This document shows positions 2,085 to 23,425 of a DNA stretch of 23,425 bases, piece by piece; position 1 is the stretch's first letter, and each line of letters begins with the position of its first letter. A program made the translations under genes and the position numbers. Origin of the DNA: a virus; the IMG/VR virus record IMGVR_UViG_3300027302_000031, positions 1 through 23,425 of that record; one strand, given 5' to 3'. The notes under the pieces are model-generated. The model was not told the origin of the DNA, did no database searches, and saw only the letters and a list, made by a program, of their open reading frames with translations.

Positions 2085-2837
2085 TCACATCATGTTGGGG
2101 TGGAAATCCCTTTTGAAGAATATTGGAAGGTCTTTTAGGATATTGGTAACAAATCCTGACGGGCCTAACAATTCTTTGGTTCCATGAAATAAACCAAATA
2201 CTTTATCCTTTACACCAATATCTTTATCAGTGAAATATAGCATTCCAGTCATTATTGATATAGCTACCCAGAAAATTATACTCGCACCAATCATGACAGC
2301 GACACGAGTTTTATAGTCGTCTGCATAATCTCTCATATAAACATCGAATGCCACATGACGATGTTCTATTTCTTCGGAAGAATGCCATTTTATCAATTCC
2401 TTGTATGGTTCATCAAACGATGACAACCATTTAGGGTTATTGAGTATTTCCATCCCCATTGATGCGGTATAGTGTTCAAGTGCAACTGTTACTGCTAAAC
2501 ATTGTTTAACTGTCAATTTCTTTTCTATTTGTTTCAACGCAACATTGATAAAATCTTCTATCTTTGTTAATGGAACATTATGAGTTTCCGCATAAAGATT
2601 CATGGTTTTATGCGCCATAGAATGCCATGCTTCTTGACCAATAAATCCAGAAATATCTTTTTCCAATTCGTCTTTAGTATTTTTACGATGCGCCCTAACT
2701 GCTCGTACAAAGAAATCTTCGCCGGGCGGAAAGGTAGAGGATAATGCGTTAAAAAAGTGGGTAATAAGTTTGCTATCTTTATAGTAATACTTTTCTGTAT
2801 TTGAAAAATCAAACTTGTTTTTGCGAACTGGTATCAT
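2085..2837 (-). CDS. Ferritin-like metal-dependent hydrolase family (PF10118 type), membrane-anchored
   Basis: The protein matches by eye the bacterial 'predicted metal-dependent hydrolase' family PF10118/COG3687, a helical, ferritin-like, probably metal-binding fold of unknown reaction. Diagnostic stretches are PPGEDFFVRAVRAHR (37-51), GFIGQEAWHSMAH (64-76), VALEHYTA (118-125) and WHSSEEIEHRHVAFDVY (151-167). They supply a set of Glu/His pairs (E40, E69, H72, H76, E121, H122, E155/156, E158, H159) suited to a di-metal site. Residues 179-201 form one hydrophobic segment, so a membrane anchor is likely. The gene runs against the surrounding late genes, has SD AGGAG before the ATG, and lies behind a consensus sigma70 promoter. 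It looks like a moron or auxiliary gene. The family call is fairly firm; the reaction is unknown. Confidence 0.85.
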   Translation of the reverse strand: MIPVRKNKFDFSNTEKYYYKDSKLITHFFNALSSTFPPGEDFFVRAVRAHRKNTKDELEKDISGFIGQEAWHSMAHKTMNLYAETHNVPLTKIEDFINVALKQIEKKLTVKQCLAVTVALEHYTASMGMEILNNPKWLSSFDEPYKELIKWHSSEEIEHRHVAFDVYMRDYADDYKTRVAVMIGASIIFWVAISIMTGMLYFTDKDIGVKDKVFGLFHGTKELLGPSGFVTNILKDLPIFFKRDFHPNMM

Positions 2838-3165: not shown

Positions 3166-3783
3166 ATGCCATTTAATGCTAATGAATTTAGAAAGCAATT
3201 GAAAAATGGTGGTGCCCGTCCAAACCAATTCCAAATTGAGTTGTTAAGTGCACCTGCATCTTTCACCACAGCAGCAGGTTCAGGCAATGCAATGTCTTCC
3301 TTTACATATATGACTAACGCAGCAGACCTACCCGGTTCAGTTATTGGTACAATTCCTGTTCCTTACTTCGGTCGTTTCATTAACGTTGCTGGTGATCGTA
3401 TGTTTGAAGATTGGACATGTGCAATTTATTGTGACGAAGATTTTATAACCCGTAATGCCTTTGAAGCATGGAATAACTCCATGTCTTTCTTAAACTTTGA
3501 TACATTCAAAGAACATGGTACGTCATCCGAAACTATTGATAAGTATGTTTGTGACATAAAAGTGTCTCATTATACAAAAACTGGTAAGGTTGATAAAATA
3601 TATGTTCTTCATAATGCATTCCCATATGTTGTATCTCCTGTCCAATTATCATGGCAGGCTAATGATCAGGTGATGATGTTCGAAGTAACTTGGAAGTATG
3701 ATTATTTCACTACTAACTTCAATGCGTATAACAAAAATGAAATTTCGTTGACTGATGTTGATGCATCGGCAAGACGTGAGTAA
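3166..3783 (+). CDS. 19: Tail tube protein, gp19-like
   Basis: This is the major subunit of the inner tail tube of the contractile tail. The match to the T4 gp19 family rests on the N-terminal pattern of a short polar start followed by RPNQFQIEL, the PVPYFGRFINVAGDR segment, and the typical EDWTCAIYCDEDFITRNAFEAWNN block, where tube proteins describe their inter-ring contacts. At 205 aa it is longer than T4 gp19 (163 aa) but normal for the cyanophage-like branch. It has its own late promoter box, SD AGAGGA and an ATG start. A second tube-like protein is encoded at 21443-21931. Confidence 0.9.
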   Translation: MPFNANEFRKQLKNGGARPNQFQIELLSAPASFTTAAGSGNAMSSFTYMTNAADLPGSVIGTIPVPYFGRFINVAGDRMFEDWTCAIYCDEDFITRNAFEAWNNSMSFLNFDTFKEHGTSSETIDKYVCDIKVSHYTKTGKVDKIYVLHNAFPYVVSPVQLSWQANDQVMMFEVTWKYDYFTTNFNAYNKNEISLTDVDASARRE

Positions 3784-12576: not shown

Positions 12577-12981
12577 ATGGATTATAAAGTTATTTCGTCA
12601 AGAAACTTGACAAATGGTGGTGTTGAAAGTATCGCTGTAGACCAAGCTGGCAGTGGTTATACTTCGGTGCCAACTGTTACCATTACCCCTGCAAACGGAG
12701 ATACTACCGGCCACGGGGCATCCGCATTTGCAGTTATTGAAGATGGTAGTGTTGTCTCTATCGTAATGTTAGATTCCGGTAAGGGATATTCGGCTACCCC
12801 AACTGTTACTATTACTGGTGGTGGTGGAAGCTCGGCAACAGCAATTGCAACATTAGATGATTTAGTTACCAAGGTTAATGTTTTTACAACTGATGGTTGG
12901 GATGTTGTTGGTGGGGTCGTCATTTCAAAAATTGGCGGTTCTTCTTATTACTATCAAACCATAACATATACCCCGCAATAA
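12577..12981 (+). CDS. GSGYTSxPTVTI-repeat structural protein, 134 aa
   Basis: Two copies of a beta-rich repeat are visible: residues 18-53 (ESIAVDQAGSGYTSVPTVTI ...) and 58-93 (SVVSIVMLDSGKGYSATPTV ... GGGGSSATAIATL). This repeat (GxGYxxxPTVTITGGGGxGATATA) is widespread in phage tail, fibre and head-decoration proteins. The remaining 40 residues (VFTTDGWDVVGGVVISK ... YYYQTITY) look like another beta hairpin pair. The gene starts 3 nt after the previous stop. I infer a small virion surface or decoration protein; a head decoration role fits the place behind the capsid gene, but a tail-related role cannot be excluded. Confidence 0.82.
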   Translation: MDYKVISSRNLTNGGVESIAVDQAGSGYTSVPTVTITPANGDTTGHGASAFAVIEDGSVVSIVMLDSGKGYSATPTVTITGGGGSSATAIATLDDLVTKVNVFTTDGWDVVGGVVISKIGGSSYYYQTITYTPQ

Positions 12982-21442: not shown

Positions 21443-21931
21443 TCAAACGTCATAAAACTCTATTTCGTAACGTTGATATTTCAATATCAACATGCTGTAT
21501 ATTTCCATAGTTTCTGATGTTTGTTCACTAAAATCAAGTTCACCCAAAGAGACAGGAACCACATCCATAAATGTAACCTTCATCATTGGATTATTATGGC
21601 TGGTGTATATTGTCATTGCTGCGTCAACATATGTGAATTCTGCACTGATAGGATGTTCTGACGGATTGGCTATACCCCACATCCACTTAAATACCTCATA
21701 CCAATTCTGCATGTTTTCACTAACAGCAAACTCCAAATATAAGTCACCAAAATATAATTTGTCACCATAAATCGGTTTATCAAATAAAGGCGAAGATTGT
21801 TGGGCGACCCCAAGATTTATTCCGGGTAAAGGATAACGTTGTAATGTAAAACTCAAATGTGGAAATGCTGAAAACTCTAGGGTTGCACGATTGCTAGTAA
21901 GTTTGTTTAAATTTTGGTATAAATCTGTCAT
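21443..21931 (-). CDS. Tail-tube-like structural protein
   Basis: The protein resembles small virion proteins of T4-like phages related to tail tube or tube-initiator subunits (gp19/gp54 type): LQRYPLPGINLGVAQQSSPL, then a G-D-K-L-x-F-G-D-L segment with a following strand, SENMQNWYEVFKWMWGIANP, a TIYTSHNNPMMKVTFMDVVP strand pair and PVSLGELDF. This order (P-G-x-N-L-G, P-x-x-G-D-K-L, N-W-x-E-x-F-x-W, N-N-P, P-V-S-L-G) recurs in cyanophage tail proteins, from memory. The ATG at 21931 is chosen because AGGAG lies before it, although the frame stays open to 22003. It is 162 aa, like T4 gp19 (163). Confidence 0.78.
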   Translation of the reverse strand: MTDLYQNLNKLTSNRATLEFSAFPHLSFTLQRYPLPGINLGVAQQSSPLFDKPIYGDKLYFGDLYLEFAVSENMQNWYEVFKWMWGIANPSEHPISAEFTYVDAAMTIYTSHNNPMMKVTFMDVVPVSLGELDFSEQTSETMEIYSMLILKYQRYEIEFYDV

Positions 21932-21971
21932 AAACACTCCTATTGTAAATAGACAAAAATGAGAAGGTAAA

Positions 21972-23425
21972 ATGCAAGTATTATTGGATAAAACACTAAA
22001 CATTATTTCAATTCAAGAGAATGGTCTTCTTATACATTCAACTTGTTTGTATCCGTTTTATTCACCAGATGGCACTAAAGTTGCTTTTTGGGTTCAAGAC
22101 TATGACTATCAAAACGATACATATCTATCTACTTACCAATTATATTGTAAAAACTTAATAACAAATGATTTATTTCAGATAAACAGCGGAAACGGTAGTT
22201 GTCCACTTCCACCAAACACTACGTTAAACGAATTGGTATACAATGCGGCATTTTCTCCTGATGGTTCCAAAATACTTTTTCTAACTACATCAACAAATTT
22301 AATACCCGCTGATACGATTTTATCTGCGCAAAATCCAAGTGGAAATAGATGGTATGTATATGATTTTGTTGATACGTCATTTACCCGTGTTTCATCCACA
22401 TCTTCTGTTTTTGGCAATAATATAGACAGAAACGAAGCATTATGGTATGATAATGACAACGTTGTTTTTGTTACCCTTTCTAATAATTTAGTAAGTGGTA
22501 TTAATATAAATTCACATTATGAAGTTTATATGAAAAACATTTCTTCTGGAAACATAATTCACGTTTCCAGAAAAGAAGACACCAACATAACACCTTATTT
22601 TATTGGTAGCTGTATAAACATTGCGGTTGCTCCAAATAAAGTTTCTTTCTATTCATATGAATTGGGATTTGTCATAAAAAATATGGTGGATACATCAATA
22701 CAACGTGTGCAAGAATTGCCAGAAATTCTTGGTTTTGGTATTGTTACACCTGAAACACTAACTTGGTCTGATGATGGAACCAAGATGTTATTTCGCATAA
22801 CCACCGGAACTTCTATAACTTCAGACACAAATGGATTAGTAGATGATTTCGTTTATGACTTTTCGAACGATACAATAATACCGTTGAATGAAAATAGCTT
22901 AGAGACTATTTATGGTAATGGTTATTCCAAAAATGCTACATTTTCGCCTGATGGAACTAAGGTAGCATTTATATCAAACTCATATAATATTGATCCTTCG
23001 TCAACAAACCCTATAGATAATTTGTATTTCAAAGATTTAGATACAAGAATATTAACCCGTGTATCTAAATCTGCAACTAATGGAAATATATCAAGCAATG
23101 TATTAGGATACACATGGGTAACAAATGATACATTGGCGTTTACCAGTTTCAGTAATGACATTGTTTCAGGTGACACCAATACTGATGTTGATTGGTTTTT
23201 TAGAGACACACAAAATAATACGACCATACGTATTAATTACAATATGAACCAACAATTGTTTTCATCTAATAACCAATATGAAGGCGTTATAAGAAAAGCC
23301 GTGTTTAACAACGTAGGAACTCGTATTTTATTCACTACTAAGTTAAAGACGTTAAACCCTACCTTTTATACTCCTAGTTATGATGAATATGATATATTTG
23401 AAAAAATATTCATTGAAGAATATGT
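21972..23425 (+). CDS. Beta-propeller repeat protein (3' partial)
   Basis: An open frame of at least 484 codons starts at ATG 21972 with SD GAGAAGG and runs off the window. It is built of repeats of the TolB/PD40 kind: YSPDGTKVAFW (30-40), FSPDGSKILF (94-103), WSDDGTKMLF (265-274), FSPDGTKVAF (324-333) and FNNVGTRILF (445-454). Between them are loops of the type S-N-x-L-V-S-G-D-T-N ... D-x-F-x-R-D, at 107-114, 170-177 and 394-411, which in bacterial secreted propellers are Asp-rich, probably Ca-binding turns. I infer a 5-7-bladed beta-propeller. Opposite it lies the tail-tube-like gene, 40 nt away. A virion surface or receptor-binding role is possible. No signal peptide is seen. Confidence 0.85.
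   Translation, partial: MQVLLDKTLNIISIQENGLLIHSTCLYPFYSPDGTKVAFWVQDYDYQNDTYLSTYQLYCKNLITNDLFQINSGNGSCPLPPNTTLNELVYNAAFSPDGSKILFLTTSTNLIPADTILSAQNPSGNRWYVYDFVDTSFTRVSSTSSVFGNNIDRNEALWYDNDNVVFVTLSNNLVSGININSHYEVYMKNISSGNIIHVSRKEDTNITPYFIGSCINIAVAPNKVSFYSYELGFVIKNMVDTSIQRVQELPEILGFGIVTPETLTWSDDGTKMLFRITTGTSITSDTNGLVDDFVYDFSNDTIIPLNENSLETIYGNGYSKNATFSPDGTKVAFISNSYNIDPSSTNPIDNLYFKDLDTRILTRVSKSATNGNISSNVLGYTWVTNDTLAFTSFSNDIVSGDTNTDVDWFFRDTQNNTTIRINYNMNQQLFSSNNQYEGVIRKAVFNNVGTRILFTTKLKTLNPTFYTPSYDEYDIFEKIFIEEY

Follow-up and report, generated by a model that had tools for sequence, protein, structure and literature searches.

Beta-propellers in phage tails are already known from the receptor-binding proteins of phi11 and 80alpha, from phiKZ gp131 and from the nozzles of T7 and SU10, and the propeller described here is a rare variant. 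The phi11 receptor-binding protein is a trimer with a five-bladed propeller that acts in host recognition by the tail (PMC4901313), and the corresponding protein of 80alpha carries its beta-propeller within the tail host-recognition device (PMC7048315). phiKZ gp131 is described as a protein at the periphery of a myovirus baseplate, with a C-terminal seven-bladed propeller (PDB 4GBF) proposed to bind a receptor or to act as an enzyme (PMC4901313). In the podoviruses T7 (gp12) and SU10 the propeller is likewise a part of the tail, in a structural nozzle role, with inserted nozzle domains and with docks for fibres (PMC9509320).

Outside phages, propellers of the PD40 family (PF07676) occur in secreted and surface proteins of bacteria, where one subfamily shows the repeat TRVS...SxDGxxVAFxS...N(L/I)VxGDTNxxxDxFVxD. 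We analysed a stretch of 23,425 nt recorded as a virus fragment (the window), in which this repeat recurs in an open reading frame at the 3′ end, termed gene A. Profile matches identify T4-type portal, prohead protease, major capsid protein and tail tube genes in the window (homologues of gp20, gp21, gp23 and gp19), and together with a gp18-like sheath gene they bear out the myovirus setting proposed in a first-pass annotation. The features of gene A and its immediate surroundings are as follows.

21443–22003, − strand: divergent neighbour, a second tail-tube (gp19-like) gene with likely start at 21931 (PHROG 45 tail tube, 4.4e-19)
21944–21951, + strand: tentative candidate late promoter TGTAAATA, one mismatch to the T4 late sequence
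21961–21967, + strand: RBS-like GAGAAGG, 4 nt 5′ of the gene A ATG (sequence reading)
21972–23425, + strand: 5′ part of gene A (484 of 933 aa), an N-terminal TolB/PD40-type beta-propeller (ORF, Pfam PD40, blade HMM, AlphaFold)
22062–22082, + strand: blade motif SPDGTKV, aa 31–37 (motif scan)
22254–22274, + strand: blade motif SPDGSKI, aa 95–101 (motif scan)
22767–22787, + strand: blade motif SDDGTKM, aa 266–272 (motif scan)
22824–22844, + strand: intact acidic loop DTNGLVD, aa 285–291 (loop scan; conserved in bacterial relatives)
22944–22964, + strand: blade motif SPDGTKV, aa 325–331 (motif scan)
23172–23192, + strand: intact acidic loop DTNTDVD, aa 401–407, partly within SNDIVSGDTN (loop scan; conserved in bacterial relatives)

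The propeller of gene A

The ORF list of the window confirms the annotated frame, which is still open at the window end, so that gene A is truncated there. Pfam PD40 matches the window ORF with E=2.5e-10 (40.4 bits, curated cut-off 20.9) and the full 933-aa protein with 36.3 bits. With an HMM of 164 bacterial blades, gene A reaches 86.5 bits and six domain hits, where the best of 200 shuffles reached 3.2 bits. AlphaFold, run with 49 aligned rows, yields about seven blade-like strand sets with blade pLDDT mostly between 65 and 94. The TolB/PD40-type propeller that the first-pass annotation had read from the repeats is thereby borne out, and structure prediction, which it had named as the check on the fold, gave a probable propeller rather than none.

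Several details of that reading changed. Four blade motifs are present (aa 31, 95, 266 and 325) instead of at least five, and the full SNDIVSGDTN loop occurs once (aa 394–403) and not several times; even so, three copies of the strict SPDG-type motif (S-x-D-G-x-K) were reached in none of 2000 shuffles. Instead of five to seven blades we count about eight repeat units, of which seven are modelled with fair to good confidence and one, at about aa 203–250, is degenerate. AlphaFold models the segment 203–241 poorly, and its spacing suggests a degenerate further blade.

The proposed calcium or metal loops fared less well. Only at aa 285–291 and 401–407 is the acidic D-x-N-x3-D core complete; the loops of the other blades have decayed by comparison with bacterial homologues, which keep the loop D and N in about 90% of rows and the loop in nearly every blade. 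Because just two loops are left, metal binding by the phage propeller appears doubtful from its sequence.

Among solved structures, Foldseek places TolB and S9-peptidase propellers at the top (1e-13 to 1e-11, probability 1.00). The TM-scores stay low, which the poor confidence of half of the gene A model explains in part; those to E. coli TolB lie at about 0.36–0.41 of the target, with about 16% identity. Unlike gene A, TolB combines a six-bladed propeller with a separate N-terminal domain. The presence of S9 peptidases in this list raises the possibility that the propeller is, or is part of, a peptidase S9-like or glycan-degrading enzyme on the tail. TolB itself is a non-enzymatic propeller, and a Pfam search of all 933 aa returned no peptidase or hydrolase match, including the alpha/beta-hydrolase catalytic domain sought 3′ of the propeller for an S9 peptidase. 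Although some phage propellers are endosialidases (PMC4901313), we regard an enzyme as very unlikely here.

The complete gene and the A/B cassette

We recovered the same phage on two further IMG/VR contigs at 99.9% nucleotide identity. One of them, L003, supplies the remainder of the gene that the first-pass annotation had wanted: gene A is complete at L003:10001–12802 and encodes 933 aa, the 484 residues in common with the window ORF being identical. The protein consists of the propeller (aa 1–484), a linker, a PKD-like domain and a C-terminal core, the last two together spanning aa ~605–933. Since AlphaFold confidence for aa 485–906 is mostly below 50, a fibre architecture of the protein is an unproven model. 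The order in L003 is gene A, an 832-aa ORF, a 647-aa ORF and a 1188-aa gp18-like tail sheath gene, and gene A is thus flanked by the gp19-like gene upstream and the sheath gene downstream.

As the first half of gene A resembles bacterial proteins and the gene lies at the end of the window's contig, we considered whether bacterial DNA had been joined to phage DNA during assembly. The same upstream join of phage and propeller sequence is found in datasets 3300027126 and 3300027597 at 99.9% identity, the SNPs in gene A across contigs are exclusively synonymous, and the reading frame in L003 runs on into a phage-type C-terminus. With three contigs carrying the join, an artefact is hardly credible. 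The same SNPs support translation of the gene A ORF, since 6/6 among the three samples are third-position changes that do not alter the protein.

A first genome scan with full-length gene A alone gave no match. The C-terminal half, compared over the PKD-like region, is homologous to Xanthomonas phage XacN1 ORF372 (9e-7) and to a protein of Alteromonas phage R22Y (3e-8); the XacN1 copy matches a K319L-like PKD model at 1.2e-4, below cut-off. Directly 3′ of gene A lies gene B, homologous to XacN1 ORF371 (8e-25) and to proteins of R22Y (2e-10) and Microcystis phage Mic1 (1e-9), with a profile match of 2.7e-26. In XacN1 (ORF372/ORF371) and R22Y a PKD-like A-core is followed by a homologous B as it is here, and in all three phages the stop of A and the start of B are separated by a 2-nt gap or overlap by 1 nt. 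By these comparisons, the A/B pair appears to form a mobile cassette for a tail appendage.

The N-terminal domain is where the cassettes differ. Gene A begins with the propeller in this phage, whereas R22Y A is without an N-terminal extension and XacN1 A starts with a cysteine-bearing, possibly zinc-ribbon region and Thr/Pro linkers. The search for the same domain in related phages was negative: unlike this phage, XacN1 and R22Y lack the PD40 propeller in their A/B genes, and PD40 was not found in the XacN1, R22Y or Mic1 records or in related contigs. In XacN1, ORF370–372 (L005:5646–16199) form an unannotated candidate tail-fibre locus with two fibre-like proteins; for XacN1, tail fibres are reported as not visible and no fibre homologue as annotated (PMC5852040), so that its A/B genes are unannotated candidates there.

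Mic1 provides an indirect link to virions. Virion mass spectrometry identified 23 proteins, mostly encoded in three regions, one of which is the tail gene block ORF20–35, with ORF25 and ORF26 not named singly (PMC7156551). The gene B homologue is ORF25, inside this block. ORF26 has the right position for A and a marginal similarity to it (profile probability 23% with ORF26 left out of the profile); a profile match of A to ORF26 was discarded as circular, as the ORF26 sequence was contained in the profile.

A one-base shift near TTTTTCTGTAAG (L003:15170–15190), either a sequencing indel or a true frameshift, apparently interrupts gene B itself: the 832-aa ORF runs out of frame and stops, and the 647-aa ORF carries on the homology, which is one ORF in XacN1 and R22Y. 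AlphaFold gave a mean pLDDT of 29, so gene B is known from sequence alone.

Further observations concern the surrounding structural genes. The tail sheath (L003:17269–20835), at 1188 aa, is about twice the 605-aa phiM12 gp18, from which it differs by a ~330-aa N-terminal extension and inserted GSGYT-type repeats; an NGGSGYT-type repeat is common to three predicted structural proteins (window 12577–12981, L003:15300–17243 and L003:17269–20835). The phage has two tail-tube (gp19/PHROG 45) paralogues, at window 3166–3783 and 21443–22003, the second divergent from gene A. Its terminase and tail genes are separated by a predicted metal-dependent hydrolase at window 2085–2837 (− strand; PF10118, 9.9e-69). 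The T4 late promoter core TATAAATA occurs exactly five times in the window (2876, 3111, 6687, 8705 and 11409), a number equalled or exceeded in 24/100 shuffles and hence not beyond chance. All five sites lie shortly 5′ of starts of genes other than gene A, and it is their placement, not their number, that is suggestive of promoters. We placed no reliance on TGTAAATA as a T4-late promoter of gene A, given that it is a one-mismatch match only.

Bacterial relatives and distribution among viruses

The sequence relatives of the propeller are bacterial, with at least 592 candidate stretches and at least 375 confirmed. Among the matches listed, they include Alphaproteobacteria, Planctomycetota, Chloroflexi, Actinomycetota and cyanobacteria and reach E-values of 1e-22 over up to ~490 aa; example loci of GDTN propellers come from Methylobacterium goesingense (L021), Microvirga arsenatis (L036) and Planctomycetota (L022). 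Compared with these proteins, the phage copy (i) has lost most acidic loops, a conserved (G)DTN-x3-D not being found in most blades, (ii) lacks a signal peptide and (iii) is joined in one protein to a phage tail core. The absence of a secretion signal agrees with the first-pass annotation: no signal-peptide-like hydrophobic stretch occurs in gene A (maximum Kyte-Doolittle 15-mer 0.78).

Among viruses, tblastn against annotated phages found no propeller relative, nor did a bacterial-like consensus query, and no PDB chain was matched by the propeller sequence. A motif scan of IMG/VR returned six hits, of which one, L017, is a true propeller, and two alignment scans of IMG/VR returned this phage and L017 only. 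L017 is a viral contig whose propeller belongs to a secreted protein of bacterial type; this protein begins with a hydrophobic stretch and has, as read by eye, a C11-type-peptidase-like region. Since short peptide patterns underlie the collection scans, it is safe to call a propeller of this sequence type rare in viruses, and not safe to call it unique. At the level of fold, propeller-like matches were obtained in other viral proteins, for example a virion structural protein of Pseudomonas phage Phabio. The expectation that such proteins are rare in phage structural regions consequently fails for the propeller fold, which has several precedents in phage tails, and holds for the GDTN/PD40 sequence type, for which no other phage was found among those searched.

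Judged by these relationships, the propeller was most likely recruited from secreted or surface propellers of bacteria, the transfer presumably having run from bacterium to phage. Such an origin would also fit a host-derived cargo gene (moron) whose product works inside the infected cell or after export and has no place in the virion, as the bacterial relatives look secreted or surface-type (L017 among them) and gene A sits at a strand switch. We consider this unlikely: the propeller is fused to a core common to other phages, gene B follows directly with the tail sheath gene after it, and nothing resembling a signal peptide precedes it.

Role of the propeller in the tail

The product of gene A probably belongs to the machinery for host recognition. 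A role in the virion is supported indirectly, as gene A is fused to, and then followed by, parts common to other phages and lies 5′ of the tail sheath gene, and a translated tail protein is supported by the neighbourhood, the cassette and the 6/6 third-position SNPs. We therefore favour, at a probability of roughly 0.5 for the reading as a whole, a tail-appendage protein of a T4-like myovirus whose propeller would bind the host surface. Its C-terminal half would belong to a two-gene cassette (A-core, then B) of unrelated tailed phages, A and B would assemble into a peripheral tail structure, the propeller would offer a binding face to an envelope glycan or protein, and binding would add to or tune adsorption.

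The propeller may plausibly be a head that binds a receptor or glycan, and the phi11 and 80alpha receptor-binding proteins and phiKZ gp131 may serve as precedents. Like the phi11 and 80alpha proteins, gene A would place a beta-propeller in tail host recognition; unlike it, they have five blades and sit in siphovirus baseplates, and a comparison of the propeller with PDB chains found no sequence relation. The phiKZ gp131 propeller, by its published description, is C-terminal where that of gene A is N-terminal.

Four observations count against the favoured reading as a whole: the mostly low AlphaFold confidence for aa 485–906, the marginal homology of Mic1 ORF26 to A, the two acidic loops left in the propeller, and the N-terminus of XacN1 A, which suggests an anchor and not a head in that phage. 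On this precedent the propeller of gene A may be a dock. In XacN1 the first ~350 aa are common to A and a second fibre-like protein (53%), as in anchors. Gene A would then encode an adaptor whose propeller attaches to the phage's own baseplate or sheath and whose C-terminus holds B, the real adhesin. This arrangement would suit the conservation of the C-terminus and B beside an N-terminus that differs per phage, a second propeller-like part possibly present in B (a 29-position stretch matches designed propellers), and the structural, fibre-docking propellers of the T7 and SU10 nozzles. Against it, the nearest sequence relatives among the matches listed are bacterial proteins and not phage docking parts, and a dock is not needed in R22Y, where A has no N-terminal extension. 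The anchor-like variable N-terminus in XacN1 and the structural nozzle propellers make docking a serious rival, if one that we judge less than likely.

The unannotated A/B tail cassette occurs in a T4-like myovirus, a jumbo myovirus and a podovirus, with gene B also in a siphovirus, and its N-terminal domain varies from phage to phage. We tentatively propose, as one possible history, that this mobile cassette captured a secreted-type bacterial propeller as an interchangeable host-recognition head and that most acidic loops were lost after capture. The locus connects a very common bacterial propeller family, for which no solved structure was matched by sequence, to phage tails, and if the proposal is true, a module of bacterial-surface origin would serve a T4-like phage for host binding.
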